A program made the translations under genes and the position numbers. A stretch of 64,000 nt of DNA from Tetraselmis striata (lineage: Eukaryota; Chlorophyta; Chlorodendrophyceae; Chlorodendrales; Chlorodendraceae). This document shows, piece by piece, positions 12,701 through 54,714 of this stretch (its first letter is position 1; each line of letters starts with the position of its first letter). The stretch covers positions 1-64,000 of the forward strand of contig VCJN01000258.1 in NCBI GenBank assembly GCA_006384855.1. The letters are read 5' to 3'. The notes beneath the pieces are model-generated. The model ran no database searches, had not been told where the DNA came from, and saw only the letters and a program-made list of their open reading frames with translations.

Positions 12701-14640
12701 TACGTTTGATGTAACGCGACGGGCCGTCTCGCTTAGTAGCAATTCGGGGACACCTGCCCGTTTCCGTTTTTCGCTGGCACGCGCCGCCACATGCGTGCTG
12801 TATTGTGAGGGGCATGAGCTGTAAGTGGTGACCGGCCCCCGTAAACATGCACGAGCATACGCGCGCTACGGGCGCCGCGCCAGGGCTATCCCGTAAAGTG
12901 AGAGAAACCACATAAACTAGTTTAGAACATGTGATAGAGACTAGTGCTTGCTATTCCTTACAAACATGGTGCACAAGGCTGAGCGAATAGGGTGAACGTC
13001 CATCAAAACATCCACGAATTGACCACGTCAGCGAATCCGCGCCCGAGACGTTTACCGGTGCGATGATGTGACAGTAGGATCGAAGTACCGGTACCCGTAC
13101 ACGAAGTCCATGAACTATCGCGGGAAACCGGCGATGGATAGGGAAATATATGCAAGCAGACATGATAAACGCACGCGACGGTCCCGATCAGTCGGGCGGA
13201 CGTCGCGGGAGACACGATGATACATCGGCAACGCGATTGATGAGGCAACAGTGTCACCGCGGCCCCAATGTAGCACACACCACGGAGCGCATGTGGAGGG
13301 ATCGGGAGGCGCAGCGACCGGAACTCACACATCCAAGCGTGGCACCCCGTAGACTTGAGTTGTCGACGTGCCGCTTCCAGTGTTGTCGTTACGACCGCAT
13401 GTTGAACTGCTGGTCAAGGAGCGCTGCGTGCGCACAAGCTCTATTCTTTCGGAAACCCTATCAGATTGTGGCGCCCCACAACCACTGAAACAACCTACCA
13501 CATGCTGCACACACAGTCATTGTTTCCGCGACTGCATACGGTGCACACCACAAAGGGTATGTCAAGATGATGCCCTCAACAACGCCGTGTGGTGAGTTCC
13601 CGTATGGACGCGCGGAAACAGCTCATGTGAAACGACACGGCCGTTAGCCCTAAATCCTGGTTATGTTCAATCCATTCGGCTGAGGCCGCACACTGAAGAA
13701 AATAATGATTCGTTGCCATGTACCTGTGGTGGCGTGCAGCCTTCTCACGGATTTTACATATGTCCCTGTTATTTTGCGGCCTGTTGTACTGTCGCTACAG
13801 GTACCTGTACGGGTAGTGCAGTACGACTATTATTATACAGGTACATACATCGGGCTTTATAATAATACTGCTGCTTCGCGGCGGGCGTACCTGTACCGAC
13901 CATTCTCGGAAAACCACTGTCGGCCAGCTTGCTCGTATCCCTGGCCCAATGGGGAGACCCCGAAGACAGACATCTCACTCGACTCACGCCCAACCGGTAA
14001 AAGACACGCCGCCCAAGTTTCCTCGGCCGCCGGCTGAATCTTGCTGTGTCGGAGCCACGACAGTTGTATGGTACAGAAAACTGTACGATGTACTGTTTCG
14101 CATCGCAAGTACGGACGTCCACCACCGCTAAATTGTAGTCGGCTTGCATCCGTCACGCGACGTACCGTACTACCGACCCAGCCCACTAAAAACGTACACA
14201 AGCAGTCACTATCCTCAATCATGCAGATATCTGTGTGGCAGGAAAACCCTCTCAGCTGCGTTAGTAGATTAACTTTTAGGTCATCAGGCTCTTTGACATA
14301 AGGGTTTATTTAGGGGGTGTAACCTGAAGACTGAATAAAGTACGACTATCTTTCACTACGACGAGGGTTTGTACGGAACCATCGTCGCAGTGTGCTTGCC
14401 CTGCTGCGCTGACACCGGATCGGCGCGTCCGGAAAAGATCCAAGATATGATTGGCTTGAATACACTGACATCGACGGCTTCCCGGTGCTGTTTCATAGTT
14501 CCGAGACTCAAACGCCGTCCAGATCGCACGTGCATCTGCCCCCACCCATGCTTTGATCTAACGGTATCGGCCATCGCATCTTCAGAAAAAGGTACCATCG
14601 GACGGCAAGGAGACGGATATGAAGATCTTCCTACTGTAAA
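9800..14640. other. No recognisable gene; one dispersed repeat and a C-tract
   Basis: This stretch upstream of CHLH shows only short or low-complexity open frames. A run of 23 C occupies 10404-10426. Positions 10897-10965 match 31478-31545 (see separate entry). GTACCTGT and GTACCCGT-type motifs recur around 13080-13890. I see no domain, tRNA or rRNA signature. Confidence 0.5.
10897..10965 (+). repeat. Dispersed repeat shared with 31.48 kb
   Basis: This ~68-bp segment matches 31478-31545 closely. Both contain CAATCGCA, AGTCGCTACATTG and CCGCGTCCGCCGACCC in the same order and orientation. The second copy lies in the short gap between two YR elements. Its origin is unknown; it could be a fragment of an older mobile element. 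Confidence 0.6.
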
Positions 14641-14950: not shown

Positions 14951-17900
14951 ATGGCTGGAGTCGCACAGGCTGTGACCGCCCGCGGGGGCGTCGCCACGCA
15001 GATGGCCGCCGCCCGTCGCGTGGGGGGCCGCCGCGTGAGCAACGTCGGCATGAGCAATGGCCTGCGGGTGAGCCCTGTTCACCTACACGACCTCCTTGCT
15101 TCTCGCCCGCCGTTGCCGCTGCCGGCAACTGTTCGCTACGGACTTCGTTACCCCCTTCCGGCTTGTTGATCATACCCCCTTCCCTCCGCTTTCGCCCGGG
15201 CCCTCCAACGCCAAAGCGCCTGCTGTCTGTGGCGAAAGATACAGGCCTTCTTCCTACTGCGTTCCGGTTTCCCTGCCTGCGCTCACTCCCGGGTCAGGAT
15301 TGCGCCGACACAGCCAAGCGCGACCTCAAGCTTGCCGCCCGGCCCCAGCAGTAGTAGTAATTAATCACGTTTACCTATGCACTCGCACACCCCACGAGCT
15401 CTTCCGGTCTCTCGACCCCCTCCCAGCTCCGGATACAATGCAATGCCCACCGCGCCCCGCCCGGCTTCTGCCATTATTACAACGGTCGAGAACATGACAA
15501 ACGCTCGTGCGCGGGTCTTTTGCTCATGGCGGCCCCTCAACTGCTGGCTTCACAGACCCCTCGCGTGGTGCCGGTCCCGAGCAGGCGCGCCGGGAAAAAC
15601 CCCGCAATATTTCCCTGCACCCCGCCGCTCACAGCCCGCCCGCCGGGCCGCTGGTTACTCCGCTCTCGGTCGCCAATTTGTGACCGGTTTCTCCGGCAGC
15701 CCTGATCCCGGCCTCGACGCAAAGTGCTGGGCCCGTGCGGCGCGCCTGCACTGACGCGGCCCGGCCTCTCGCCGGACTGGACGGCCTCGACGCCGCTGTA
15801 CTCTTCTCTGCCAGCTGCCGAGACTGACCGCCCCGACTGCGCCCCCCCTGCCGCAGAGCCTGGCGAAGCAGATTCGTGACGCCAACCGCGGCGCTCGGGA
15901 GGTGCGCCCGCCCCCGCGGCAGCTAGGATCCGTCGCATGCAATGCCTGTCGGCACGCAGCCCTTTTCGATGCCCACAGGCCGGAGTGGCTTATTTTAAAC
16001 TATCACGACTCAGGCCATTTGCGGCAGTGATGTTGCGAACTCCCCTAAATGGACATGTCCTGGTAAAGGTGGAATGAAAGGACTGGGTGATATCTAGGTG
16101 GCCACCAGAGGAACTTTACGCAGCATTGGCGCCAGCACTGAGCCACCCCCGCCCTGCACTTCTGCCCTGCAGGTGACCACGATGGTTGCCACCGGCCCGC
16201 GCACCAAGGTCGCCGGTGCTGATGAGCCCGACGAGATGGACGACCTTATGGGCGGCGGTGAGTGCGGCACCCATCCTTCTGCATCTTCTCTACCGCTGTA
16301 GAGACACATCAACGCATTTATTGGCATGCGCCAAACTGCTGCGCAATCAGTTTCGCTGATGTATGCTTGGTTGACTCTGCTCAGGCATGATGATGGGCGG
16401 CGGCTACACCACCGTGGACCCCGAGTCCCGCCGCATCAAGCCCGAGGCCAAGGGGCGCGTGATGGTGAAGGTGGTGTACACCGTGCTGGAGTCGCAGTAC
16501 CAGTCCTCCCTCTCGGCGGCCGTGAACAACATCAACGCGACCAACCAGGACGTGTGCTACGAGGTGGTGGGCTACCTGCTGGAGGAGCTGCGCGACGCCA
16601 AGAACTTCGAGGCCTTCAAGGCCGACGTTGCGGACTGCAACATCTTCATCGGCTCCCTCATCTTCATTGAGGAGCTTGCCGACAAGGTATGACACGCCTT
16701 TCCGGACGAGCGCCTGAATTTTGCTGTCCCAATTGTCCAACGGAGATGGTCCGATGCCCTCCCAGTTCATCCCACGGCAGCGGAGGTGCCTGACCGAGAC
16801 GCTCCCTTTGTCGGCCTGGGCAGATCATTGAGGCGGTGACCCCCGTGCGCGACAACATCAACGCGTGCCTGATCTTCCCCTCCATGCCCGCGGTCATGAA
16901 GCTGAACAAGCTGGGCACCTTCTCCATGAGCCAGCTGGGCCAGGGCAAGAGCGTGATCGGCGACTTCATGCGCCAGCAGCGCAAGAACAACGACGGCTTT
17001 GAGGAGAGCCTGCTCAAGCTGGTGCGCACGCTGCCCAAGGTGCTCAAGTACCTGCCCAGCGACAAGGCCCAGGACGCGCGCAACTTTGTCAACTCGCTGC
17101 AGTACTGGCTGGGCGGCAATGCTGAGAACCTGGAGAACCTGCTGCTGTCGACCACCTCGGCCTACGTGCCCGCGCTCAAGGGCAAGGAGTTCACCATCAA
17201 GGAGCCGGAGGTCTTCCCTGATGTCGGCATCTGGCACCCGGCTGCGCCCCGCATGTACGAGGACCTGAAGGAGTTCCTCAACTGGTACGACACCCGCAAG
17301 GACATGACCTTCGCCAAGGATGCGCCCATCATCGGCCTCGTGCTGCAGCGCTCCCACCTCGTCACCGGCGACGAGGCGCACTACGCCGGCATGGTGTCCA
17401 ACCTGGAGAGCCGCGGCGCCAAGGTGGTGCCGGTCTTTGCGGGCGGCCTGGACTTCAGCTCCCCCGTGAAGAAGTTCTTCTACGACCCGCTCGGCAGCGG
17501 CCGCTCGTTCGTGGACACCGTCGTGAGCCTGACGGGCTTTGCGCTCGTGGGCGGTCCTGCGCGCCAGGACGCCCCCAAGGCTGTGGAGGCGCTCACGCAG
17601 CTCAACGTCCCGTACCTCTGCTCCCTGCCGCTGGTGTTCCAGACCACGGAGGAGTGGGTGGAGTCGGAGCTGGGCGTGCACCCGGTGCAGGTCGCCCTGC
17701 AGGTGGCGCTCCCCGAGCTGGACGGCGCCATCGAGCCCGTCGTCTTTGCCGGCCGCGACTCCAACACCGGCAAGAGCCACTCGCTGCCGGACCGCATCGA
17801 CACGCTGGCGGACCGCGCCCTCAAGTGGGCCAACCTGCGCGCCAAGAAGACCAAGGACAAGAAGGTGGCTATCACCGTGTTCAGCTTCCCGCCCGACAAG

Positions 17901-20516
17901 GGCAACGTCGGCACCGCCGCCTACCTCAACGTCTTTGGGTCGATCCACCGCGTGCTGAAGGAGATGCAGGCCAAGGGGTACGACGTGGGCGAGATCCCCG
18001 CCAGCGAGGAGGAGCTCATCCAGAGCGTCATCACCGACGGCAACGCGCAGTTCAACACGGCCGACCTCAACATCGAGTACAAGATGAGCGTGGCCGAGTA
18101 CCAGGAGCTGTGCCCGTACGCGGAGGCGCTGGAGGAGAACTGGGGCAAGCCCCCCGGCAACCTCAACACCAACGGCGTCGAGCTGCTGGTGTACGGCAAG
18201 ACCTTTGGCAACGTCTTCATCGGCGTGCAGCCCACCTTTGGCTACGAGGGCGACCCCATGCGCCTGCTCTTCTCCAAGAGCGCCTCCCCGCACCACGGCT
18301 TTGCCGCCTACTACACCTACCTTGAGCGCATCTTCGGCGCCGACGCCGTGCTGCACTTCGGCACCCACGGCTCGCTGGAGTTCATGCCCGGCAAGCAGGT
18401 CGGCATGGCGGGCACCTGCTACCCCGACGCCCTCATCGGCAGCATCCCCAACATCTACTACTACGCCGCCAACAACCCCAGCGAGGCCACCATCGCCAAG
18501 CGCCGCTCGTACGCCAACACCATCTCGTACCTCACCCCGCCCGCGGAGAACGCCGGGCTGTACAAGGGCCTCAAGGAGCTGCGCGAGCTGATCAGCAGCT
18601 ACCAGCAGCTCAAGGGCACCAGCCGCGCCACGCAGGTCATGAACACCATCATCGAGACCGCCAAGCAGTGCAACCTCGACCGCGACGTGGCGCTGCCTGA
18701 CGCCGACGCGGCGGAGCTGGGGGAGGAGGCGTGCAACGACGTCGTGGGGCAGGTGTACCAGAAGCTGATGGAGATCGAGAGCCGGCTGCTGCCGTGCGGG
18801 CTGCACGTGATCGGCACGCCGCCCAGCGCGGAGGAGGCCATCGCCACGCTGGTCAACATTGCGGAGATCGACCGCCCTGAGGGCGACGCGCCCGTGAAGG
18901 GGCTGCCCGGCCTGCTGGCCACCGCCGCCGGCAAGAACATCGAGGCCATCTACCAGGGCAGCAACGCCGGCAAGCTGGACGACGTCGTCATGCTGCAGGA
19001 GATCACCGACGCGAGCCGCGAGGCCGTCAAGGCGTACGTCATGGGGCAGACCGGCCCCGACGGCCGCATCAAGCGCTCGAGCATGAACAACTTTGCGCAG
19101 AGTCTGGGCCTCACGGTCGAGCCGTACGTCAAGGCGCTGCAGGGCACCAAGTTCGCGGGCGCGGACCGCGGCGAGATGAAGAAGCTGTTTGCGTTCCTGG
19201 ACTTCTGCCTCGAGCAGGTGGTGAAGGAGAACGAGGTGGGCGCGTTCCTGGACGCGCTGGAGGGGCAGTACACCATCCCCGGCCCGGGCGGCGACCCCAT
19301 CCGCAACCCCAAGGTCCTGCCCACCGGCAAGAACATCCACGCGCTGGACCCGCAGTCCATCCCCACCACCGCCGCCTGCAAGAGCGCGAGCGTGATCGTG
19401 GAGCGGCTGATCGAGCGCCAGCGCATGGAGAACGGCGGCAACTACCCCGAGACCATCGCGCTCGTGCTGTGGGGCACCGACAACATCAAGACGTACGGCG
19501 AGAGCCTGGCGCAGGTGATGTACATGGTGGGCGTGCAGCCGCTGCCCGACGCGCTGGGCCGCGTGAACAAGCTGCGCCTCATCCCGCTGGAGGAGCTGGG
19601 CCGCCCTCGCGTGGACGTCGTCGTCAACTGCTCGGGCGTCTTCCGCGACCTCTTTGTCAACCAGATGAACCTTCTGGACCGCGCTGTCAAGATGGCCGCC
19701 GAGGCGGACGAGCCCCCGGAGATGAACTTTGTGCGCAAGCACGCCAAGGAGCAGGCGGAGGAGCTGGGCGTGAGCGTTCGCCAGGCCGCCAGCCGCATCT
19801 TCTCCAACGCCAGCGGCTCGTACTCGTCCAACGTGAACCTCGCGGTCGAGAACAGCAGCTGGAGCGACGAGCAGCAGCTGCAGGAGATGTACCTCACGCG
19901 CAAGAGCTTCTGCTTTGACAGCGACCGCCCCGGCGCCGGCGGCGAGGCGCGCCGCGACGTCTTTGAGGCCGCCATGAAGACGGTGGACATGACGTTCCAG
20001 AACCTGGACAGCAGCGAGATCAGCCTGACGGACGTGAGCCACTACTTTGACAGCGACCCCACCAAGCTGGTCCAGGGCCTGCGCGCGGACGGCAAGGCGC
20101 CCGCCTCGTTCATCGCCGACACCACCACCGCCAATGGGCAGGTGCGCACGCTGGGCGAGACGGTGCGCCTGGACGCGCGCACCAAGCTGCTCAACCCCAA
20201 GTGGTACGAGGGCATGATGGGCAGCGGCTACGAGGGCGTGCGCGAGATTCAGAAGCGCCTGACCAACACCATGGGCTGGTCCGCCACCAGCGGCACCGTC
20301 GACAACTGGGTGTATGACGAGGCCAATGCCACCTTCATCGAGGACCCCGACATGGCGCAGCGCATGATGGACGCCAACCCCAACTCGTTCCGCAAGCTCG
20401 TCGCCACCTTCCTGGAGGCCAACGGCCGCGGCTACTGGGAGGCGGACGACGAGAAGATCGAGAAGCTGCGCCAGCTGTACACCGACATCGAGGACAAGAT
20501 CGAGGGCGTGGAGTAG
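14951..20516 (+). CDS. CHLH: Magnesium chelatase subunit H, plastid precursor
   Basis: This is the large porphyrin-binding subunit of Mg-chelatase, which with CHLI and CHLD inserts Mg2+ into protoporphyrin IX as the first committed step of chlorophyll synthesis in the plastid. My exon model is 14951-15067, 16173-16257, 16385-16686 and 16824-20516, with GTGAGC, GTGAGT and GTATGA donors and AG acceptors. Phases join cleanly to give 1398 aa, the normal size for the family. Residues 1-39 ([20 protein letters not shown]...) are Arg/Ala-rich like a chloroplast transit peptide. The CobN/BchH domain fills the last exon; its [20 protein letters not shown] motif starts near residue 679. Three introns interrupt the first ~170 codons, after which 3.7 kb is intronless. 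No frameshift or missing region is seen. A CHLH paralogue is possible but nothing suggests it. Confidence 0.96.
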
Positions 20517-25661: not shown

Positions 25662-26239
25662 CTCCAACCACGTGGCGGGCGGCGCCGTGTCGATGCCGCC
25701 TCGCGGGTTCGTCCCGTGCAAGACGCTTTGGCTTTCCCGCACGCAAGACCCGCATGTGAAGACCCGCCGCACTCAGACGGCCGGTAGCGTCTTCTTATTG
25801 GGTGCGAATAACCGGCCTCTGCCGGCATGCTGACTGCCGCCGACATTAATCGCACCTCCGAAAGGCAAGCGCTGAGACATCGCGCCTCCCTCTTCTGTTC
25901 TCTTCAAGCCTCCCTGCGCGAGTTGGTGGTACTGGTGGCCCCATATGCGTGCCCTTGCCTACATGGCACGCTCCATCTTGTCGCCGACTGCTCGGCGCCT
26001 TGGCCCGGCTGACCGATTCAAATTCCTACCTCGACACTTGTCGCGATTCCATGTCCGGTTTGTCAATAATGGCCAACTCGACTACCGTGACCGAGCGAGC
26101 CGCCCACTTTGGTCGGCTTCTCATGCCTCGATGCGCAACGGTTACGCAGCCTAAGGCGGTCGATCTGGCCTTCGAGCGAGGACGAGCGAATACCCGCCAG
26201 GCACGCAGCCATGCGACCTCCGGCTCGCGTCCCGACTCG

Positions 26240-26830
26240 TGTACTCCCGAGTCTGACTACACGCGCCACCGGGTGCGACGCAACTGGCATGCTTGGGCGG
26301 ACATCGGCGCCGGGTGCAGGGTCATCGTCGACATAGATCCGCAACGACGTAGTGCGTATCCCGTTCAAGGACGGGCCGCCCGCCCCCTTTCACCAATCAA
26401 GGCGTCTAGATGGAGGACGCTACCCCCGACCATCAGCGTCGCTACTTCATGGACGGCGAGCGGGCTCGCTTCATGGATAGTAGAGTGTGGGAGGAGGGCC
26501 ACTGTGCGCGGTGGGTCTCTTGGCTCCTGATCGACCTACGACCCCTCAATGCTTACTAACCGTAAGGAGTGGAACTTTAGTTTCGAGACCCTCACCCGGC
26601 CGCGTCGTCGTCATCTGGCTCGAGCCGATGACTGCATGCTCTCCATGGACCGACATGACGGCTTCTACGCCGTCGGCATTGCCCCCAAGGACCGCGACTA
26701 CTTCACCGTCGACTACCGAGGCGAGCTCTACCGACAAGCGGGACTTCCTATGGGCTAGAGCCCAAGCCCCTATTACTTCTGCTCCCTCACTGCGGCGTTC
26801 AACGCCCCTTGCAGCGCCCTGACTTCACAG
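26240..26830 (+). pseudogene. Reverse transcriptase, N-terminal half (element 1, decayed)
   Basis: Broken + strand frames match the element 3 RT in order: YTRHRVRRNWHAWADIGAG, a GERARFMDSRVWEEGHCARW segment, LIDLRPLN, then SMDRHDGFYAVGIAPKDRDY followed by FTVDYRGELYRQAGLPMG and, after a stop, SPSPYYF. The residues between WVS and the LIDLRPLN motif, which include the LFLAPKPG of element 3, are deleted. The catalytic YVDD-type motif lies beyond the LINE insertion. Confidence 0.7.
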
Positions 26831-27059
26831 TGACCTCCCATGGGGTGCGTCGTTCCAAGCTCACACTTGGAGTGTTATATACTCTACATCGCTGTACTAT
26901 GTACTACTGGAGCCGAAGAAGGAGCGAAGAACTGGCGACTGAGGCGTACGAGAACGAGTACAAGCCAAGCGAAGTACGAGTACGAGCACGAGTGCGAGTA
27001 CAAGCGAAGACGAAGTACTAGTACGAGGACGATGAGGCGACAATACGAGCGACTACGAG

Positions 27060-27680
27060 GTGACCAGGAAGTCCGAGGCCCCTGCGGCGTTTTATTCCGC
27101 GCAATCGGTTGTCCTGCCAAAGCTGGTACGGGAGTACGGGCCCGCCCTTGGCCCCTTATACGAGGCGGTCCGCGCCGAGGTGTCGTCTGTGGCTACGAGT
27201 GCTTTGCCATGGGCGCGTGAGACGCGCCGCGTGTACGAGACTGTACGGGCCCTAACCACGTTACCGCAAGAAGATGTGCGGCGCGCACGCGCGGCGTATG
27301 GGCACGCCCACGAGATCTTCGAGTTACTTACGGTCAGTAATGCTACGACCACCGCTGCATCGGATCCAGCAGCTGGTACTACGACCCATACGGGTACGAG
27401 CACTAGCGGAGGAATGCGCGTCACCACATCTCCTTTTACGGCCACTCCTCTTGGAGTTGGTACTGGTGAGGCCGCCTCTGCTGCGCAGCAATTGCTTGCT
27501 ATCGGTGGTACGAGTACTGCCAATACCGTTACTACATGCGCTTTTGTAGCTCTGAAGATACCGTCGCCGGGCGAATTAGTGGCGCACCCTCCGTCAGCAG
27601 CGACTGTTTTCCCTCCCAGAATCGCTGCCAGGTTCTACTGCTCCGCCCTCGGGTACGGGTTCGGGTGCGACCTCCGATGA
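27060..27680 (+). pseudogene. Unrecognised ORF in the nested LINE-like insert
   Basis: About 206 codons are open. The first ~95 residues (AFYSAQSVVLPKLVREYGPA..., ARETRRVYETVRALTTLP) look like a folded helical segment. The rest is Thr/Ala/Ser-rich and unstructured. It precedes the LINE C-terminal remnant in the same orientation, so it may be an ORF1/gag-like product or the broken upstream part of the same ORF. I do not recognise a specific family. Confidence 0.35.
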
Positions 27681-27693
27681 TCAACCCACGACC

Positions 27694-28771
27694 ATGGTTG
27701 TCCAACGCCACCTCAGCCGTGCGATTCGCTTGCGTGACTTCGTGGCCCTCGATCTCAGCTTCCAACGTACTGGTGCAGCGGCCTCGCGACTTGATACCCT
27801 GCGCCTGTACAGCGCGTGCGGGCCGGGCTCCCTATCGCTTTTCCAGTCGGATCACGAGTCCGCCCGCAAGATTCCCCATGCTGCTTATGCGGCCGCCGCT
27901 GCGCGGGTACTGGGCCTTTGCCCGCGCGGAGGTTCCGCGCTTGTCACTTGCCCTGGCCCAACGTGTGGTATTGATCCCTTATGGCTTCGCTCTACGGATG
28001 GCTCGAACCGGAGCGCTACGGATTTCATCGTGGATCATCTACCCATATGCCCCGTAGCGAACTACAAGCACCGCATGCATACCGCTTTGAAGAATCTGTG
28101 GGCATCTGTGGCAATTGATGCGGGGGCGGTGCTTGACCGGGACCGCTCGGGAGCCGGCGACTTGACCCTTGAGACGAGTGGGCTGCGCCCAGCGGACCGC
28201 TCGCGGCCGTCGGACCTGACGCTGGCGGGGTGGGGGGGGGCGGCGTGCGATTGATTACATGATCGACTTCGCGTGCGTGTCCTCCACGACCCCCACTTGG
28301 AGCAACGACCCCCGCTGGTGCATCCCGGGAATCGCGGCGACCGAGGCGGAGCATGCTAAGTTGGCATCGGACCGGGCGTCTTCCGCCCCAGTGCAGGGTG
28401 TTCACCGGTACTACCCTTTTGTGGTTGAGGACCGCGGCCGTCTCGGGAAGTCCGCTTTGACGGTGGTCTACATCTTCGCGGTGCTGTTGGCTGTGCGCAA
28501 CTTCCCTGGCGGTCCTTCCGCCCCGACCTCTTACTTTCTTCGTGGTCAATCCGTTCAGGCACTTCGGAACTTTGTCGCCAGCCAACCTGCTGAGTTCCGC
28601 CGTCACCTGTCGCGCACACGGCGGGGGCTGTTGCAGCGGGTCTCGGCTTGCGTGCATGGTACCCTGGGCGGCATTCTCTCTGCCGGTGTGCAGATGGCCA
28701 AGTCTGATGCGTGTGCTCGTGCCCACTCCACGTCTTCTCATGTTGCTGCTTCCACCCCGCAGTCGCTGTAG
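27694..28771 (+). pseudogene. C-terminal remnant of a non-LTR retrotransposon polyprotein
   Basis: Two consecutive + strand frames read through 27694-28254 and 28259-28771. The first has a Cys/His cluster (CPGPTCG, then HLPICPVANYKHRMHTAL) and then RPSDLTLAGW. The second has the segment YYPFVVEDRGRLGKSALTVV. A C..C...H...C cluster followed by HRHxxL, RPxDL and PFVxExxGRLGxxA resembles what I recall of the C-terminal regions of algal LINE proteins. The G-run near 28231 sits at the frame break. No RT core is visible. Confidence 0.45.
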
Positions 28772-29462
28772 AGGACCTTTCTGATTGCCCTTTTCTTTGG
28801 TGATTTCCGATATCGCCTTCTGCTGCTAGCTCATGTAATTAAGGCGACCAGGAAGTGCAGGACAGTATAACGAGTCCCCGTAGGGTGCGAGTAACCTGTA
28901 CGCATCAACAACGCGAGTATTGAGCGCGCTGGTGTCATTTAGCGTTAGAGCGCTGCCTTAGTTAGTTGCGTATTAGCAGTAGGTACTAGAACCTACTAGA
29001 ACCACCGAGAACGCTACAACATGTGCGAGTTACTTCTCGTATGTGCATAATAATAGCGAATGAATTACCGATGTGCTGCGGACAGACGAAGGTGCTAGGA
29101 ACCTGTCTGTAGTTAGGTGTGTGTTACTAAAATAGCGACGGGTCGCGGGTTAGGACCGCACACGTCGACTTAAGTAGTAGTCTAGTAGTTACACGCAGCA
29201 CAAGTGGCGGGAACTGGAATCAATACGCAGCGCAGGAATGACGACGGAAACCAACGATTATGAATAGGCCGGCGAAACCACCGCCGGGCCAATCACCCAG
29301 CAGGTTACCAACTTCCGGTACTGCAAGAACCCCTTTTCCCAAATCTCCGCTCATTATTCCTAGCCGTGTGGAATAACGATCCAATGGGCCCTCATACTCA
29401 TCTCCTGCTTTGGGACTATCTATGGCTAAACGGCTATTCGCCCTAAGTCCTAATGTCAACAT

Positions 29463-30640
29463 GGGACGACGACGCTAGGCGCTGCGCAGCCACTTCCGCG
29501 GCTGCCGCATGCTCCCCTACATGGATGACTACATGTTCTTCGCGTCCAGTCAGGCGAAAGCCTACGCTCTGCGCGACCCCTCACTTTCATGTCGGGAAGC
29601 TAGGCCTCAACCGACACCCCAACAAGGGTCAATGGGAGTATGTACCGCGAATGGAGCAGCTTGGCTTGGAGTTTGACTCGCAGAACGGTACGATTCGGGG
29701 CCCCCATCGGAAACTCGAGTTGCTCGCTGCTACAGCCCTTGGCCTTATTGATTTCGCCGTGCTATGCGAGACAAGCGATAGCTGCTTGTGCGGGAGCTCG
29801 CGTCCCTGGCATGTCGCGCCCATTTCTTATTCCTCGCCATCAAGCCGGCGCGGTTCTATCTACGCGAGCCGCACGACGTGCTCCGCGCGAAGGATTCATG
29901 GATGAGCGGGCGCTTCACGATGACGCACCGGCTCCGACACGACCTTGAATGGTGGGTGGCGGTCCCTGGCTACAGCAACGGCCGCTCCATCTACAAGCCC
30001 GTCGAGAGAGCATACTACGTGCATGCCGACAGCTCCGGCTACGGGTGGGGTGCCGTTCTCAACGAGACCACCGAGGCACACGGCTTATGGTACGACGGCG
30101 ATAGCGAGCTGCACATCATCTAGAAGGAGCCCAAAGTTGTCCGGTGGTGCTCATCTCTCGGAGTTGCGAGGTAGACATGCGCTGCTCCATGAGGACAACA
30201 TGGGAGTGGTCCACATCCTCACCAACCTCACCTCCCGCTCCCCTCTGCTCATGACAAAGCTACGAAAATTATGGTTCATCCTTAACACAAACAACATCTC
30301 CATCCGTACGTGCTACATCAAGACCACGGCAAACATCCGGGCTGAGTGACCGCCGCGAGAGGCTCGGGATTGACTACGACGATTGGGCGTTCGACCTACG
30401 CCACTTCGACAACCTACGCCTAATAACCACCACACCATCGACCGCTTCGCTATATACCATGGAATACTGCGCGTCGTGATGTCGTGCGTGATGAGCACAA
30501 CTAGTACCACACTCCCTGGGGCCTCATCGACCACCTCGCCATCAAATTTCAGCGCTGCGGCCACCGTCATCGTGCCCTACTGGCCCGACCGGAGATGGGC
30601 AGATGGCACTAGCGCCTCTCTGAAATAGTATCCAAAGTGG
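29463..30640 (+). pseudogene. Reverse transcriptase C-terminal half and RNase H (element 1, decayed)
   Basis: In shifting + strand frames the order is LPYMDDYMFFASS (RT catalytic motif), LNRHPNKGQWEYVPRMEQLG, ACRAHFLFLAIKPARFYLRE, RHDLEWWVAVPGYSNGRSIY, ADSSGYGWGAVLNETTEAHG (RNase H), LLHEDNMGVVHILTNLTSRS, and a degenerate tail matching the DRFAS...NWCNAPWPLLP region of element 3. Frameshifts and a stop after LHII show that it is dead. No tyrosine recombinase follows before B1. Confidence 0.75.
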
Positions 30641-30847
30641 TTGTCGTCCTGCCCTTCCCGGACCTATTCGAGAACGGCCGCCTCGGCGTGCTGCGCGGTG
30701 GTGTCGGTCCTTTAAAATAAGTGGGCCGTGGTCGCCTTTCGGCTTCCTCCGGGCCGGGTGCCCGGCCCCGACTTCTTGACCGCCCCTCGTCTGCCCCTAT
30801 GGCCGGCCGGCGCCAAATTGCGTCGTGCCCCAAGCGATCGAGCTCGA

Positions 30848-31840: not shown

Positions 31841-32026
31841 TGATCTAAACTAGTTTATGGGGTTTCCATCCTTGACCTAACCGCTTTTCAGCTACAAGTG
31901 CTGCGCAGTGGTACGGGAACTAGTAACTGTTGTTGCGCCCTTGTTGGGTGCAGCACGAGTAGACATAAAAGCAGCCAGAACAGCTGAGCCTGCCATCTTC
32001 CAGTTTTCGCTGCGTTCCACGCAGCG
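31841..32026 (+). repeat. A1 repeat of element 2
   Basis: These 186 bp start TGATCTAAACTAGTTTATGG and end CGTTCCACGCAGCG. By eye they are identical to A2 at 34762-34947. They define the left end of the element. Confidence 0.9.
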
Positions 32027-32139
32027 ATGTAAAAACTGTCTCGTAACCCGTTGCGAGCAAGGTCACCCCAGGTTGTTCAAGACCACACCCGGCTCGCCAC
32101 CCGAGTGTGATATTCTCGTCCGTACGTCCGTGCGTTACC

Positions 32140-33019
32140 ATGCCAGATGGAGAAGAACCCGTCGCCGAGCCGACGTTGGAGTCGCTGAACGCAGATATGA
32201 GGGCCCAGTCTTCATTACTGCGAGAGCTGGCTACAGCTGTGGCACAATTGACGGCTCGTGATCGTGCGTGTTGTTGATGGAGAAGGGGCACATGGCTCCG
32301 GCTCCGGGCAGCGCTTCGCGGGACAGCCGACAGGCAGCGGGGGAGCCGCAGAGCGCCCCGACTTGCTAGAGCTAGCCCAGAGCGGCCGTGTCGGAGCAAA
32401 ATCCGTGAGTGCCGAGGATGATTACCTCGCGGTGCCAGAGCTACTGCAGAGAGCAGATTCTGGTTACGAGGCCGTTCGACCGGTCAGCCGAGTGCCTGGA
32501 CTTTTCCCTTTGAGCACCGACCTAACGAACGAGTACCTCAAGCAGGATGACCGGCGTCTGCCGGCCCAGGAGGAGTACTTGTGGATGTCGTGTTTCGGGG
32601 CCCACATGGCCGCCCTTTTCGTGGCGCTCGACGAGCTGCTACCTTACGTCCCCGCCACTAACCAGGACTTCACCCCCTACCTCGCGAGAGCTCGGAATCA
32701 CGCCGAGGCCATCGACAAGGCGTTTCGTTTTCGTCTAGCCTTCCTGCGGAGGCTGAATGAGATCAAGCGTGTGCACGGTGACCAAGGTGTTCTGGACGTG
32801 CTGCGAGCTCAGCATTTTCAGCCTGCTTCGGAGCATCTGGGTTCTGCGATTTTTGGGGACCTCATGAGGGACTACGAGCGTCGTGTCTTCGAGGCGACCG
32901 TTGCCAGCAGCGCCAAGGCGACCGCTACTTCTCGAGTAGCGGCTGCAGCCGCAGGTCGCGGGCGTGGGCGAGGACGTGGCGGCGGACGTGGACGCGGCCG
33001 CGAAGGTGAGCACGAGTGA
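32140..33019 (+). CDS. Gag-like protein of YR element 2 (one frameshift)
   Basis: An ATG at 32140 opens a 45-codon frame (MPDGEEPVAEPTLESLNADM, then LLRELATAVAQLTARDRACC) that looks like an N-terminal coiled coil and then stops. The neighbouring frame, open from 32258, continues for about 250 codons to 33019. Its central helical region includes DDYLAVPELLQRADSGYEAV and EEYLWMSCFGAHMAALFVAL, and it ends in a GRGRGRGRGGGRGRGREG tail that would bind nucleic acid. A C-terminal RG-rich tail after a helical body is the usual layout of a retroelement gag. The break near 32260 may be a simple indel or a programmed shift. No zinc knuckle is present. Confidence 0.6.
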
Positions 33020-33232
33020 CGGCGTGGGGCGCCGCTCGTCGGAGCTGCAGGAGCCTTGCGAGGTCACCTTTCGGTGACCGCCGCAAGACGCACCCTTGCA
33101 GCTCAACGGCGGGATGAGCGCCCTGTGTCAGGACCTGACCCCCCCACCTTACAGACTTCATTTAGACCTTCCTCGGTGCGGCGCTTCTCACAGCTACAGC
33201 CGAGTGCGGCTCAACCATCCGCACACCTGCAC

Positions 33233-34681
33233 ATGGCGGCTCAACCATCCGCCTTTCTTACAACCCCATCTCTGCGTTCGTCGGTTGTTACACTACGTGT
33301 TACAACCGGTTCGCAACGACCAAGTTTCGCGCGTGTACGTTACGCACGGGACAGGCGCTACGAGCGCGAAGGGCGCGCGGGGCGGCCCTCTTACCTGAAC
33401 CTAGCCCCGCAAACCCGTACTGGAGCTACTGCAAACCCGTCCAGCAACTACCGGCCAACCGCCGGGAACCTAACCGCTGCTGCCGAGTACTTTGCGAACA
33501 GTAGCCGTACCGGTGGAACTCTGCCAGTAAAACGACGCACTTACGTAATCGACGAGCCCGCAGCTATCGCTCCATGGGCTGCGTCACTGCGATCTCGGCT
33601 GCAGGACGCGTTCGGTTCAGACGAGCTAGGGCAGCGGACGCTGGACCTGCTCTCCAGCTCCCTCAGCGCGCAGACCCTCAAGAGCTACGCCGGTAGGCTG
33701 TCTCAGTTCGCTGAGTTCTGCCACGACTCCGAGAACATCAGCCCGCTGGAAGCGACTACTGCTACTGTTGTCCGGTACGTTGCCTGGATCGGGGAGCGAG
33801 GACACATCGCAGCTAAATCGCTGCAGCCCTACCTGTCTGCCATCAACACCTTCTTCGAGCTGCACAACCTCGTCCCGATCGCCAAGGACAGCCTACACCT
33901 CACTTCGGCAAGGCGTGGGTTAATGTTGCGGCAGCGCCGACTGGACGCTGCCCCTTTGCGTGTCCCTCTGCCTGCGGATGTAGCTTACCGCTTCGTCTCA
34001 AAGGCCGAGCTAATTGTGTCTGCTCCTTACCCAGAGTCCCACCTCGACTACCGAGCCCTCTTGGCCTCGGTTGTCAACTTCCTGTTCTTTGCCAGGGGCC
34101 TTACTGGCGTCTCCTGTCGAGTGCAAGATGTGCATGTCGACACCTACAACATCACCTTGCAGATCTACCGCGAGAAGGGTCGCGCTGGCCGTCGGGGACC
34201 CGACGACCTGCGCGTACTTCTCCTTCCAGTGTCCGAGCACCCTCGAGTGGCACGACTCTTGCGCTACTTCATCGACAACGTCCAGTCTGTCCCCCTGGTT
34301 ACTGTTGGCTTGGCTGCCTCCAACTTCTGGGCTGTCAATGTGGCTGAGCAGTCAAAACCTTGGACTGCGGCTACGATGTCAGACTGGTTGTCTACAGCGG
34401 TCAACCTAGTCAACGCTGCCCCTCCTGCTGGCACTTCCTGGACTTCACACAGTCTACGCAAGGGCGCAGCCTCTGCAGCAAACGCCATCGGAACGCCACT
34501 GTCCCACATCCGCTACCAAGGCGGCTGGGCCACTAACTCCGATGTCGTTCTGGACTACATCGACCCCAACGTTCTTCCTTCTCCTGGCGCGTGGTTCTTC
34601 TTTGGACACATCGCCCCCCTCCGCCACTTCCAAGTCCAACAGGACTCCGCAGCGGTGGCCTTCCCAGTGCCTCCTTCATGA
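33233..34681 (+). CDS. Tyrosine recombinase of YR element 2
   Basis: This predicted integrase joins circular element DNA to the genome by a tyrosine-recombinase reaction. The first in-frame ATG is at 33233 (482 aa), although the frame is open back to 33056. An N-terminal SAM-like core-binding domain (SLSAQTLKSYAGRLSQFAEF, then LQPYLSAINTFF) is followed by the catalytic domain. That has a candidate first Arg in FFARGLTGVSCR, then WTSHSLRKGAAS (H-x-x-R box), RYQGGWATNS (His/Trp box) and LDYIDP with the candidate nucleophile Tyr. The C-terminal boxes match element 3's recombinase closely. The frame is uninterrupted, so the protein is probably functional. It could be expressed from its own start or by readthrough from gag. 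Confidence 0.85.
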   Translation: MAAQPSAFLTTPSLRSSVVTLRVTTGSQRPSFARVRYARDRRYEREGRAGRPSYLNLAPQTRTGATANPSSNYRPTAGNLTAAAEYFANSSRTGGTLPVKRRTYVIDEPAAIAPWAASLRSRLQDAFGSDELGQRTLDLLSSSLSAQTLKSYAGRLSQFAEFCHDSENISPLEATTATVVRYVAWIGERGHIAAKSLQPYLSAINTFFELHNLVPIAKDSLHLTSARRGLMLRQRRLDAAPLRVPLPADVAYRFVSKAELIVSAPYPESHLDYRALLASVVNFLFFARGLTGVSCRVQDVHVDTYNITLQIYREKGRAGRRGPDDLRVLLLPVSEHPRVARLLRYFIDNVQSVPLVTVGLAASNFWAVNVAEQSKPWTAATMSDWLSTAVNLVNAAPPAGTSWTSHSLRKGAASAANAIGTPLSHIRYQGGWATNSDVVLDYIDPNVLPSPGAWFFFGHIAPLRHFQVQQDSAAVAFPVPPS

Positions 34682-34735
34682 CTTGGCGCTACCCCTTCTC
34701 CGTCAAATCCACCGCTCTCTACGTTCGCTCAAGAC

Positions 34736-34762
34736 TGGCAAAACCAGACTCAACTTTGAAAT
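34736..34762 (+). repeat. B1 repeat of element 2
   Basis: This 27-bp sequence starts TGGCAAAACCAGACTCAACT and is identical to B2 at 35041-35067. It directly abuts A2 (sharing one base), forming the B1-A2 junction. Confidence 0.9.
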
Positions 34763-34947
34763 GATCTAAACTAGTTTATGGGGTTTCCATCCTTGACCTA
34801 ACCGCTTTTCAGCTACAAGTGCTGCGCAGTGGTACGGGAACTAGTAACTGTTGTTGCGCCCTTGTTGGGTGCAGCACGAGTAGACATAAAAGCAGCCAGA
34901 ACAGCTGAGCCTGCCATCTTCCAGTTTTCGCTGCGTTCCACGCAGCG
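34762..34947 (+). repeat. A2 repeat of element 2
   Basis: This is the direct copy of A1 with no visible difference across 186 bp. It is separated from B2 by 93 bp of unique sequence. Confidence 0.9.
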
Positions 34948-35040
34948 CCCCCCCTGACTCCGTTTTCCCTCCACGCTTTTCGCTAAACCTTCCTGCCAAT
35001 TTCGGCTCTTGACCGTGTAAGACAGCCTGCGCGATCTTTT

Positions 35041-35067
35041 TGGCAAAACCAGACTCAACTTTGAAAT
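35041..35067 (+). repeat. B2 repeat of element 2 (3' terminus)
   Basis: This 27-bp direct copy of B1 marks the right end of the element. Confidence 0.88.
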
Positions 35068-49944: not shown

Positions 49945-51127
49945 TGGGAGCGGCGCCCTGGCTCGGTGGAGTTATCGTGCGCGGTGGAGCACAGCGGCAC
50001 GGGCATCCTTGGGTGGGGGCACCCCCTAGGCGGTGACAGCACGGCTGGCAGACTAGTGACTACCTGTAGTGTAGTTGACGCATATGGTTGGCGGGATGGA
50101 ATATGCGCGCAGCAATGTTATGTATCTAAGTTGACGTACCCTGTGAGATACCCAAAAGTACTAACACCTGTGAAACCATGCACTTGTAATGTATCCTTGT
50201 GTAGTTTTATGGCGGTAGGATTGGGCGAATCGCCAAGCTTGCCGAACCCAATATCCCGGCGCGAATCAAGACAGGAAGCGGCGCATACCAGGGCATGCCG
50301 AAACCCGCTCGTGCGGGTTACGTACTGAGCCTGGCGCGCCTCTCGCCGCCACAGCGGGTTGGTACTTTGGGGGCGGCAATTTCAACGCATGCCCCTGCTC
50401 CATGTTGCTTGGAGCTGCGCTTTGCCGGCTTGCCGTGTTTGAAGGTGCTACGGGGCAGGTGAAGGCTCGAGTGCTCGACGAGGATCGGAGTGCACTACAA
50501 GATAGGTATGAGTAAACTATGAACACGTATTCGCTGCAGCATTTCTCAGAGACGCACAGTTGTACAAAGTTCGCATTTCTGGGTATTCATTGAAAATTAT
50601 ATGCTGTACCGGCAAAGTTTTTTGCCATCTTGTCGCTACGGGTACCGAAAATAGTCGCCAGAGATACTGCGAGATCGTGCCGATCATCCACTCGGCGCTG
50701 GCGGGTGGAAGATGAGATAGTCAATAAGCTACTAAGGATTTCTTGCCGCCCACATATTGCCTATTGTTGCGCGACTTTGCTGCCCCCGCGCCCAGCTCGT
50801 GCAGCCACCGCTAGCGTACGGGTACGGTAGTAGCATAAAATGCAGAGCGGCACCCGCCAACAGCAGCACTGACAGTCTGTGTGCGGTCCTGCATTCCTTC
50901 TGCTGCGCGAAACAAGCATTCGCACCGCGGAGGGCCACAGTCCAGGGGGCGGACAAAAACATTCTGGATCGCTGCCTAAACGGCCGTCGTAGAGACGCTG
51001 CAAGGGTTTCACTGGTGCAAGTCAAGTCCCGGGGGTGAAAAAATGGTGATTCCTCGCATAATAATTGCCGATTTCAAATGAGAGATGTTTTGATGACAGC
51101 AGGCGCGGTTTATTTGACTACGAGTTA
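49945..51127. other. Intergenic; one dispersed repeat
   Basis: Apart from the repeat at 50970-51043, I see no feature and no recognisable protein. GTACGGGTACGG-type motifs occur near 50638 and 50815. Element 3 begins just beyond. Confidence 0.45.
50970..51043 (+). repeat. Dispersed repeat, inverted copy of 44028-44100
   Basis: This contains CTGCCTAAACGGCCGTC and GACGCTGCAAGGGTTTCACT in the opposite orientation to the 44.0-kb copy. It lies about 85 bp outside the B2 end of element 3. Confidence 0.6.
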
Positions 51128-51154
51128 GCAAAGCAAAGGGCTCGCAGTTTTGCC
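51128..51154 (-). repeat. B2 repeat of element 3 (3' terminus)
   Basis: On the minus strand it reads TGGCAAAACTGCGAGCCC and then TTTGCTTTGC, a near copy of B1. It lies 80 bp beyond A2. Confidence 0.8.
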
Positions 51155-51234
51155 AAGAATGTGTCAGATCTCTTACAACGTTTGGCACAGGGGCACATGC
51201 CCAAAAACACGCATGAAAGGGTTGGGAGGGGTGG

Positions 51235-51433
51235 GTTGCGCTAGCTGGAAGCTGGCGCAAAGGCAGAAGGTGGAGACACCGCCGCGTTGCGGGGCGTCAT
51301 ATCGGGGTGAGGGATGGACGTGGGCACACGGCAGTAGCGTACTAGCCGCGTATGGCGGAATTGTAACGTCGGGTAACACCCGTCGTACTTAGCCCCGTGC
51401 AATTCAAACCTCTATAATTCTCAATATGGCCAT
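51235..51433 (-). repeat. A2 repeat of element 3
   Basis: This ~199-bp direct copy of A1 lies between B1 and B2, as in the other elements of this window. Confidence 0.9.
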
Positions 51434-51435
51434 TG

Positions 51436-51463
51436 GCAAAGCATGGGGCTCGCAGTTTTGCCA
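51436..51463 (-). repeat. B1 repeat of element 3
   Basis: On the minus strand it reads TGGCAAAACTGCGAGCCC and then ATGCTTTGC. It differs from B2 at two positions, and its opening resembles the B repeat of element 2. Confidence 0.8.
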
Positions 51464-51518
51464 TCATGTCGCCATTTGGCGTGGCAGCCTGGCTGGTTGA
51501 CCGCCCCAGGGGGGTCAT

Positions 51519-52675
51519 CTAGCCGAAGAGGTGCCATGCTGCCGGACACGGCAGCAATGTTGGGTCGATGTAGTCGAGCACCACGCAGGACTCCATCGCC
51601 CAGCCGCCGAAGCACTTGATCTTCTGCATCGTCACGCCGAACACGTACGTGGCTGTTGTGGCCCCCTTGCGGAGGGAGTGGGACGTCCACGCGAACCCCG
51701 CGGGGGGGGGGGGGGGGGGGGGGGCTCGTGCACTGCTGTCAGCACCAGTTGCAGCCAGCTGGTGAGGGTGTCCGCCGTACATTCGGCATGCCCCTCGCGC
51801 TGGCTGATGGCCCATCGCGCCGCTAGCACGTGGCCGCCGGCGAACACCTGACGGGCAGCATCAAAGTAGTGCAGCAGCTCCGCGATGTCGGCATGCGCTG
51901 ACGCTGGCGGCTGACACAACAACTTCTTGCTTGCATCCGCGCCGCGCTGGCCTTTCCGGTCACGATGGTATAGGAGGATTCCGCCGTCCGGGCCGACCGT
52001 GAGGTCACCCGTACGACACTCCACCCCCGCTCCTCCGCGGCAGAAAAACAGACAAAGCACGACGACTGCCAGGCTGGCGCGGAACAGCTCCACGCGCACC
52101 ACGGTACTTGGGTCCGTGCCCCAGGTAGGTCCTAGCTCCAACCGTAGGGATTTTGCCAGGCTCATGGCTTCAGCACCACACGCGCGGGCAATGGGGCCCG
52201 CATCAGCTCGGGGTTTAGCGTCACCTGCGACGCCGCAAGGCCCTTGCGGACTCTGCTCACCAGATCGGCCAGAGCCATCGGCTCCTGGCCATGGTCCGTG
52301 AAGAAGTTGTTGACGGCCGACAGGTAAGGCTGCGAGCTGGAGGCTTTGATCGTCCCCGTGTTGCCCAACCACGTGACGTACCGTGCCATAGTCCCGGGGT
52401 CGGCAGCCAGGGCCGGTCGCCGCTCCTCTTCGCAGAAACGGAGCTCCATGCAACTGGCGTAAGACGCCGCAGTGGCCGGCGCCCACGCAGCTGATAGGAG
52501 CTCAAGGGTTTGGACGCCAAGGGTGTCAGACCATAGAACCCGTGTCATGTACGGGCGCATCGAATCAGCCCATGGTGTCGTACAGCTCGCGACCTCGACG
52601 CGGTATTTCACCGCTGCAGTTCGTACTGGTGCCGCACGTACAACCGGTAGTTGGTGCCCGTTGCCCGGAAACATG
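51519..52675 (-). pseudogene. Tyrosine recombinase of element 3 (two frame breaks)
   Basis: It starts at ATG 52675 (MFPGNGHQLPVVRAAPVR). The core-binding domain (YASCMELRFCEEERRPALAA, then SQPYLSAVNNFFTDHGQEPM) reads to about 52162. A second frame then carries LFFCRGGAGVECRTGDLTV, with a candidate first Arg, and LLHYFDAARQVFAGGHVLAA. A third frame after the 23-G tract at 51702-51724 carries WTSHSLRKGATTATYVFGV, KCFGGWAMESC and VLDYIDP with the candidate Tyr. All catalytic boxes survive, but two shifts separate them, one exactly at the homopolymer. Assembly or length error in that tract could account for the second break. Confidence 0.8.
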
Positions 52676-52688
52676 GATAGCGTAGCAC

Positions 52689-54668
52689 TTACGGCCCCTC
52701 GGCGCAGGTAGACCCATGCCGGAAGGGAACGCGGAATACAGTCATGGGCAAGTGAGGTCTGCCGATCATACCTCGCCCGTCTCGCCGTCCCGTCCGGAAC
52801 AAACCGGCGCGCGGCGCCACCGTGAGCTCCTCCACTGCCATCTCGGTGAGTGCCTGGTGCCACGCCTTGCCCTCCCATCGCGGGGCGACGACGGTCGCCG
52901 CTGCGCCATTCTGATGCAGCTTCTGCACGAGGTCGGGTAGCAGGGGCCAGGGTGCGTTGCACCAGTTGTTTTCGCGGCGCCAGTCCGCGTCCGGCAGGTG
53001 CAACGAGTCCACCGCCTCGCACGTAGGGCCCAACCACGCCGCGTTGTAGCGGGGGAGCAGGGTGTTGAGGGCGGACGCGAAGCGGTCGATGGAATGAGGG
53101 CCGAACCGGCTCTCCGGTTCCGCGAACAGGAGGGGGTCGAGCTGCCAATCGTCGCTGTCGAGGTGCCGGCTTCGACGGTCCGCCCAGATATTCGGTGCCG
53201 AGCGAATGTACCGCGCGCGCAGGTGGATGCCGTGCGAGTCCAGCAAGCACCAGAGTCGTCGCAGCTCGGCCATCATCTCGGGAGACCGTGAGGTTAGGCC
53301 CGACAGAACGTGACATACCGCCTGGTTGTCCTCGTGCCTGAGGACGTTGCGCCCGGCGAGGTGGGGGAGGAAGCTTTCCACGGCAAGGCGGACCGCTTTG
53401 AGCTCCTTCCAAGTGATGTGCTGGCGCTCGTCCGCCGAGCTCCAGAATCCCCGCGCCTCCAGCCTGCCGTTCAACACCCCACCCCACCCGTAGCCTGAGC
53501 TGTCGGTGTGCAGATAAGCCGTCTCCACCGGGCGGTGGATGGGCTTGCCGTTGGACTGACTAGGCACCGATGTCCACCACTGTAGGTCGCGGCGGAGCTG
53601 TGGCGTCATCCGGACGCGCCCGCCCCACCGGTCGCCGACCACGGAGTGGAGCTCCCGCAAGAAGAATCTTGCGGCCGGGATCGCCAGAAAGAGGTACTGC
53701 GCCTGCCCTGCCAGTGACTGCAGTTCGCGCACTGGCGGGAGCCACCTGGCGTTCCGCGTGGCGCGGCCGATGAGCCGGGTGGCCCGCCGGGAGAGCCGAT
53801 TCAGCTTGTCCGTCGGTGCGTAGAACATGCCGGACGCTGACTCGATGTCCACTCCCAGGTGCCTGCCGAACTGGCAGGGCTCCCAAAAACCCTTTGTGGG
53901 GTTCCGTTGCAGCCCCACAGTGTCGAGGAGGCTGGCGAGCCGTTGACGGAGGGGGAGCGCCCGCTCCATCGATGCGGAGAAGAGAAGGAAGTCGTCCACG
54001 TAAGGTAGGATGCGCGCCCCCCTCCACCTGGTCCGCCGGAGGTAGCGCTTGCTCCGTGTGGGCTGCGTAGACGATGAGGGGGGCTCGGGCTCGGGTCTCC
54101 GCAGGTGGGTGATGAATACTTGGGTGAGCGTGACGAAGTAATAAGGTGAGAGGCTCCAGCCCATTGGCAGATCCGCGAGCCTGTAGAGCTGACCTCGGAC
54201 GTCCACGGTGAAGTAGTCTCGGTCCGCCTCTGCGATGCCTAGAGCATAGGAGCCGTCTTGGAGGTCGAAGGAGAACATGTAGTCTCCCTTTTTGGTTAGG
54301 TGGCGCACTCCCAGTAGGGTCTCCATCTTGAGCCGCTTGCGCACACAGTAAGAGTTGAGCACGCGGAGGTCGATGATGCAGCGCCATTGGTTGACGCCGG
54401 GCTTGGGTGCTAAAAAGAGTCTTGACACCCACTTGCGGCAGGTGCCAAACTCCCACGCGCCGGACTCCACGAAGCGGGCAAGCTCGCCCTCGAGGAAGGT
54501 GAGCTGCGCTGGGGTAGCGTCCTGCATGCTGATGCCGTTGTGGAAGTTGGGTGGGGGGCGGTTGTGCTTGAAGGGGATCCGGACGCCCTCCTGGATCCTC
54601 CGTAGAACTTGATCGCTCGCCCCGATGTCTTGCAATTGCCGCCATTGCCGCCGCACGCGGTGTCGCAT
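52689..54668 (-). CDS. Reverse transcriptase-RNase H polyprotein of element 3
   Basis: This converts element RNA into DNA. The start is taken at the ATG at 54668 (659 aa), 46 nt after the gag stop. The frame is open back to 55277, so a +1 shift from gag is an alternative. RT blocks in order: WVSRLFLAPKPG, IIDLRVLNSYC, FSFDLQDGSYALGIAEADRD, LADLPMGWSLSPYYF and ILPYVDDFLLFSAS, the YVDD box with catalytic aspartates. RNase H follows: AYLHTDSSGYGWGGVL, HITWKELKAV, LRHEDNQAVCHVL and SAPNIWADRRSR. The C-terminal region (IDRFASALNTLLPRYNAAWL, then NWCNAPWPLLPDLV) is typical of DIRS/Ngaro-type RT-RNase H proteins. All catalytic boxes are present and the frame is uninterrupted. Confidence 0.92.
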   Translation of the reverse strand: MRHRVRRQWRQLQDIGASDQVLRRIQEGVRIPFKHNRPPPNFHNGISMQDATPAQLTFLEGELARFVESGAWEFGTCRKWVSRLFLAPKPGVNQWRCIIDLRVLNSYCVRKRLKMETLLGVRHLTKKGDYMFSFDLQDGSYALGIAEADRDYFTVDVRGQLYRLADLPMGWSLSPYYFVTLTQVFITHLRRPEPEPPSSSTQPTRSKRYLRRTRWRGARILPYVDDFLLFSASMERALPLRQRLASLLDTVGLQRNPTKGFWEPCQFGRHLGVDIESASGMFYAPTDKLNRLSRRATRLIGRATRNARWLPPVRELQSLAGQAQYLFLAIPAARFFLRELHSVVGDRWGGRVRMTPQLRRDLQWWTSVPSQSNGKPIHRPVETAYLHTDSSGYGWGGVLNGRLEARGFWSSADERQHITWKELKAVRLAVESFLPHLAGRNVLRHEDNQAVCHVLSGLTSRSPEMMAELRRLWCLLDSHGIHLRARYIRSAPNIWADRRSRHLDSDDWQLDPLLFAEPESRFGPHSIDRFASALNTLLPRYNAAWLGPTCEAVDSLHLPDADWRRENNWCNAPWPLLPDLVQKLHQNGAAATVVAPRWEGKAWHQALTEMAVEELTVAPRAGLFRTGRRDGRGMIGRPHLPMTVFRVPFRHGSTCAEGP

Positions 54669-54714
54669 GTAGCTTGAACTTGGGTAGCATGACTCGGAAC
54701 GGCGGGGCACACCG

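Follow-up and report, generated by a model that had tools for sequence, protein, structure and literature searches.

How does an element that has the repeats of a tyrosine recombinase (YR) retrotransposon, and no reverse transcriptase (RT), spread through a genome? The question is raised by a stretch of 64,000 nt from the chlorophyte Tetraselmis striata (hereafter the window: positions 1 to 64,000 of the forward strand of VCJN01000258.1, assembly GCA_006384855.1), which sits in contig C201 of the 224-Mb assembly. At 31841-35067 of its plus strand the window holds a complete element in which a gag-like gene and a YR gene are accompanied by split direct repeats in the order A1…B1A2…B2. An earlier note on this DNA had proposed either an internally deleted element that keeps its own integrase and borrows an RT, or a lineage without RT that is mobile as DNA through a circle. 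The RT-less lineage has held good, whereas movement as DNA only is less likely, the anatomy of the element favoring an RNA intermediate. We consider it probable that the element is one copy of a high-copy, RT-less, PAT-like YR retroelement family that is semi-autonomous, making its own Gag and YR and borrowing RT in trans.

A repeated family in which gag adjoins YR

The genome contains a 37-mer of A 1,053 times and its reversed control not once, well beyond chance, and with up to 3 mismatches the B1A2 junction was found 1,024 times and the A2-tail junction 792 times. For the junction of gag, stop and YR, an exact degenerate pattern matched 805 places, and 1,409 were matched when up to 3 mismatches were allowed. 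Gag adjoins YR without room for an RT in 29/29 readable copies (a first set of 25/25 that includes the window copy, three more, and one tandem), a count obtained again with a separate pattern; locus L036, which has no recognisable gag, was left out. These loci are a biased sample, most having been fetched for holding a perfect A. The YR frame is open in 110/111 matches, the best 111 of 6,776 candidates by score. Older subfamilies are also RT-less: gag adjoins YR in L033 and L034, and matches of an 85-90% subfamily lie beside a gag-YR junction on C390 and C141, two of the eight matches on contigs covered by the listed places. Conservation of the junction among copies, which the earlier note had singled out as worth checking, is thereby established, and a deletion private to the window copy is rejected, since gag adjoins YR in every readable copy. 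The family is an RT-less lineage and not a one-off deletion. The full-length relatives envisaged in the same note, sharing these termini and carrying an RT, were not encountered: no RT-bearing element with the family's own A and B repeats was found among the readable copies and the top-scoring RT candidates, most copies being unread.

Among the first 100 A matches, 47 are A2, 40 are A1 with an A2 2.7-2.95 kb away, and 13 are unclassified. Where the spacing is longer, the copy on C110 (8.8-kb spacing) has an ordinary gag|TGA|YR junction; that on C29 (11.5 kb) has about 8.6 kb inserted in the 3′ part of the YR gene (L031:7808 to L032:6425), with no match to the RT of element 1, an RT-bearing PAT-like element in the window (51125-56030, minus strand); and that on C135 (11 kb) stayed unread. 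A Pfam scan of the gag and YR frames, three minus-strand open reading frames (ORFs) and one further plus-strand ORF gave no match to RT, and on this basis the idea of an RT concealed in the linker or encoded on the minus strand was rejected. The methyltransferase domain of the DIRS group likewise had no Pfam match in the ORFs scanned.

Both pairs of repeats described in the earlier note were verified by sequence (Table 1). Its view that A1/A2 identity makes the copy young can be kept only in part: such identity is compatible with a young copy, yet dates it poorly, as A hardly varies across the family (0/186 sites with shared variation among 42 A repeats from 21 young copies, most of these loci having been picked for a perfect A). 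The gag gene starts at an ATG at 32140, 5′ of the frame given previously, and is 291 codons long in most intact copies and 284 in two. Its product has an Arg/Gly-rich C-terminus and 29% identity to the Gag of element 1, and matches no Pfam gag domain. In the window copy the frame is shifted by a private 4-bp duplication (about 32263-32266) that is absent from all 22 other aligned copies. The recombinase frame is intact, as had been stated, being open for 553 codons; it matches the phage-integrase N-terminal domain of Pfam (E 5.6e-8) and, weakly, the catalytic domain (E 0.0017, below its cut-off), and the His, Arg, Trp and Tyr of its C-terminal motif align with Cre. The gap of at most ~36 nt formerly placed between gag and YR proved to be mistaken: the two genes share one frame, with a lone TGA (33017-33019) between them, and the first in-frame Met of the YR ORF lies 71 codons past that TGA.

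Table 1. Features of the gag-YR element and of RT-bearing element 1, in window positions
Feature	Position	Strand	Remarks
A1, left split direct repeat	31841..32026	+	186 bp, identical to A2
TATA-like CATAAAAG inside A1	about 31964	+	putative promoter
gag-like gene	32140..33016	+	frameshifted in window copy; 29% identity to element 1 gag
UGA stop between gag and YR	33017..33019	+	context UGA CGG; proposed readthrough codon
Predicted RNA stem-loop	33026..33124	+	-67.1 kcal/mol, z-score -5.0
YR reading frame	33020..34681	+	553 codons, open
Tyrosine recombinase domain	about 33572-34678	+	HxxR, W, Tyr aligned to Cre
B1	34736..34762	+	27 bp, identical to B2; last base shared with A2
A2	34762..34947	+	186 bp, identical to A1
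Tail, A2 to B2	34948..35040	+	UGUAA poly(A)-type signal 35016-35020, 20 nt before B2
B2, right end	35041..35067	+	27 bp, identical to B1
Element 1 gag frame	54715-55800	-	
Element 1 RT frame	52689-55283	-	864 codons
Element 1 YR, two frames	51632-52501, 52162-53559	-	

Selection on Gag and YR and the stop codon between them

The ratio of nonsynonymous to synonymous polymorphism per site (pN/pS) was calculated for 21 of the 23 aligned copies, L033 and L035 being left out and L033 shown apart. Among these young copies gag had a ratio of 0.15 and a pS of 0.08, and the YR domain a ratio of 0.10 and a pS of 0.07; the control, two wrong frames, gave 0.86 to 4.3. Shared variants fall at third positions in 36/54 cases in gag and 34/42 in the YR domain, and singletons do so in a lower share (49/82 and 51/94). 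When the YR domain was compared with the older copy L033, pS was 0.28 and the ratio 0.17. The low pN/pS of both genes indicates that the lineage made use of Gag and YR as it evolved without an RT, and selection of this kind would mean that the two proteins serve mostly the RNA from which they were translated.

The stop between the two genes is TGA in 29/29 copies (28 TGACGG, 1 TGATGG) and in 76/77 genome junctions whose letters were shown. These 77 come from 100 listed of the 805 places, and the pattern required YGG after the stop, so conservation of CGG is partly imposed. The first paired base of the predicted stem-loop is the 7th nt past the UGA. None of 200 shuffles of the 110 nt from the stop reached a fold as low as the one listed in Table 1, and in an intact copy this stretch had the lowest energy and z-score of 50 windows of 110 nt each, the next z-score being -4.4; two young variants scored -4.6 and -3.6. 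Across the 16 distinct sequences found in the 29 copies, the first 112 nt from the TGA show no length change except a 4-nt insertion in the old copy L035. Shared changes occur at 2/53 four-fold sites in the 71 codons from the UGA to the first Met, compared with 26/174 in gag. As far as sequence can tell, these features taken together suggest that readthrough of the UGA gives a Gag-YR fusion.

It is also conceivable, and in our judgement somewhat unlikely, that the UGA simply ends gag, that YR is made by internal initiation, by reinitiation or from a separate transcript, and that the stem-loop serves RNA packaging. Such an arrangement would touch expression only and is otherwise compatible with a semi-autonomous family. 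It would suit the position of the first in-frame Met, 71 codons past a UGA after which protein constraint is unclear, and in the available text of PMC2194720 the gag-UGA-pol junction of Tca2 contained a minor promoter and did not support readthrough when placed in yeast reporters. The constant length of the first 112 nt (L035 excepted), the recurrence of TGA itself in nearly all places shown and the placing of the stem-loop directly downstream of it argue the other way, as does the pN/pS of 0.17 obtained for the UGA-to-Met stretch when compared with L033.

Route of movement and source of the polymerase

At three empty sites (L027/L030, L010/L017 and L019/L014) target duplication is absent except for a shared T; these are the clear cases among 8 pairs shown, the other 5 being ambiguous and set aside. 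In 17/23 complete copies a T follows the final AAA of B2. Locus L037 (C348:1-4800) contains head-to-tail units, YR-B-A-gag-YR-B-A, with no tail between them and with two gag-YR junctions 2,916 bp apart. Both the spacing and the joins would follow from entry of a unit circle into a B1A2 junction; the tandem units imply circular DNA. Among the matches listed, C2249 has three YR copies, also spaced 2,916 bp. On C158 the B2 of an RT-bearing element runs directly into the start of another unit, forming a B2-A1 junction.

The pentamer UGUAA, described as the major poly(A) signal of Chlamydomonas reinhardtii in the available text of PMC4025486, lies exactly 20 nt upstream of B2 at 27/28 B2 sites and within 45 nt upstream of B1 at 0/30 B1 sites, exact B sequences only being counted. 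The same signal stands before B2 in element 1 and in an RT-bearing family, C158-type, to which we return below. Its presence before B2 only means that the transcript should end before B2, which would then be restored from B1, in line with the published reverse-transcription model for split direct repeats (references 23 and 24 of PMC6681497, of which part was available). In L033 A1 and A2 have 8 variants in common, plus 2 and 4 of their own, and the A2 of L034 has the same 8; A1 equals A2 in 16/21 young copies, from loci picked for a perfect A. Four copies (L012, L017, L011 and L026) are mosaics of sublineages with sharp breakpoints, the pattern that template switching would give. Judged from these features, an RNA intermediate is favored over a DNA route.

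Candidate donors of RT are present in the genome. Element 1 has A repeats of about 200 bp at 97-98% identity and B repeats of 31 bp at 90%, and a search with its RT returned 75 matches (from the best 67 of 4,190 candidates scored). At least 13 uninterrupted RT frames of 849 codons were found, about 60% identical to the RT of element 1, and each of the 13 has a listed B-A junction of the C158-type family (L038, L039) 1.2-1.3 kb downstream of it. This family has 241 B-A junctions genome-wide and is outnumbered by the gag-YR lineage with its 1,024 B1A2 junctions; its A and B differ from those of the gag-YR element, with little in common but the TGGCAAA that opens B. At 26228-30681 (+) and 56770-57787 (-) the window has broken matches of RT-like and YR-like type, which are probably further PAT-like elements.

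In the cycle that we propose, transcription would start inside A1, at the TATA-like motif, and the RNA, cleaved and polyadenylated after UGUAA, would carry B1 and A2 and lack B2 and the 5′ part of A1. Gag would be translated from it, and part of the ribosomes, helped by the stem-loop, would pass the UGA and make Gag-YR. The RNA would be packaged by its own Gag and copied by an RT acting in trans, most likely from one of the intact RT-bearing PAT-like families in the genome. The internal B1A2 block would be the template for the missing ends, yielding a circle with B-A junctions, and the element's own YR would insert this circle without target-site duplication.

Were the element instead an internal-deletion derivative of an extant autonomous PAT-like element with the same termini, its Gag and YR would be merely inherited. 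RT-bearing PAT-like families with intact RT frames do exist, and a parent could lie among the copies that were not read, the 13 unclassified A matches or C135; yet no RT-bearing copy with these A and B repeats was found, old and young subfamilies have the same junction, both genes are under purifying selection without an RT, and the long-spaced copies gave an ordinary junction (C110) and an insertion inside YR without a match to element 1 RT (C29). We regard this derivation as unlikely. Still less credible, to our minds, is an RT-less lineage that moves as DNA only, its YR excising a circle and reinserting it as in Cryptons, with copies gained through replication timing. The open and selected YR frame, the three empty sites without target duplication, the circular DNA implied by the tandem units and the lack of RT in all readable copies would all fit such a lineage, but split repeats with UGUAA before B2 and not B1 would have no evident role in it, and a selected Gag no obvious use. 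Concerted change of A1 and A2 is moreover unexpected if whole elements move, and a unit circle without the tail could presumably not rebuild the tail at new sites.

Several observations weigh against the semi-autonomous cycle preferred here. Both frames are intact in only 11/21 young copies, and AlphaFold models are poor, with a mean predicted local distance difference test score of 35 for YR (single sequence) and 38 for Gag (4 sequences). The A and B repeats of the C158-type family, being different, offer its RT no evident way to recognise this RNA, and the RT-bearing families examined included none whose A or B repeats match. Among the young copies pN/pS is 0.51 from the UGA to the first Met, where sites are few and protein constraint is unclear, and 0.58 over the next 113 codons. 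The stem-loop is weaker in old copies (z-scores of -2.5 in L033, -1.8 in L034 and -2.8 in L035), and over the next 113 codons, beyond the stem-loop, only 4/80 four-fold sites vary, so low synonymous variation does not single out the stem-loop. The mosaics and the homogeneity of A1 and A2 could also stem from gene conversion.

A related family of about 2.4 kb with split repeats (L014:134-2598, L019:3243-8829, L027:182-534 (-)) has about 2.1 kb between the A repeats in L014 and L019. It has the first 27 bp of A (25/27), the tail (72-77%) and a portion of B in common with the gag-YR element, and no recognisable genes: comparison of stretches of L014 and L027 with gag, YR and RT gave nothing better than E 0.3. 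A young gag-YR copy is nested in L019 inside a copy of this family, which may use the gag-YR element in trans. A tentative scheme, to which we give somewhat less than an even chance, thus has three levels: RT-bearing PAT-like elements that supply RT, the gag-YR lineage with its UGA readthrough, and a family lacking recognisable genes that rides on that lineage. If it holds, the gag-YR element would be a capsid- and integrase-bearing satellite retroelement that has all but the polymerase and has satellites of its own.

Elsewhere in the window, a 26-bp segment at 12904-12929 (-) matches the start of A at 92% and shows no further clear similarity; it may be a remnant of another related element or a chance match. 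The long frame at 16794-20516 (+), which reads like magnesium chelatase subunit H, is presumably a host gene, as suits a green alga.

Comparison with known systems

If the semi-autonomous reading is true, RT can be a common resource even where capsid and integration are private, and the family would provide a natural system for studying RT recruitment in trans and the cis action of Gag and YR, as well as a case of a Gag-recombinase readthrough fusion. Its high copy number and its copies with intact frames make the system testable.

Cryptons resemble the element in having a YR and no RT, but they are not known to have split direct repeats or gag; with its split direct repeats and selected gag, the element is not a Crypton. 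Toc1 of Chlamydomonas, which may be RT-less with split repeats, could be a precedent. In the parts of the open-access literature on YR elements without RT that were available to our searches, no RT-less gag-YR element is named. A search for relatives in viral contigs gave two pattern matches, none confirmed.

The closest likeness is to the PAT-like members of the DIRS group (Pat1, Toc, Kangaroo), which according to the available parts of PMC4157794 and PMC6681497 have the order A1…B1A2…B2, a gag-like gene and a YR. The present element has these features and integrates without target-site duplication, but differs in having no match to RT and ribonuclease H or to the DIRS-group methyltransferase, and in a gag that is in frame with YR across a UGA in 29/29 readable copies. 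It is thus PAT-like in its workings and departs from that group, in every readable copy, in its lack of RT. SIRE, the short non-autonomous partner of VIPER, is likewise an RT-less relative of a YR retrotransposon with split repeats in common; as described in the available part of PMC6681497, however, it is short and equals the A2-B2 region, whereas the element studied here encodes two selected proteins.

The junction itself has parallels outside the YR elements. Gag-stop-pol retroviruses have a single stop before the enzyme and structured RNA downstream. Tca2, with its gag-UGA-pol arrangement, also has a single stop between gag and enzyme, followed by structured RNA, according to the available text of PMC2194720. 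The enzyme downstream of the stop here is, in contrast to both, a tyrosine recombinase alone, with no RT. Non-autonomous retroelements usually lose all of their genes, or lose gag; a Gag and an integrase kept under selection without a polymerase are the reverse of that usual pattern.

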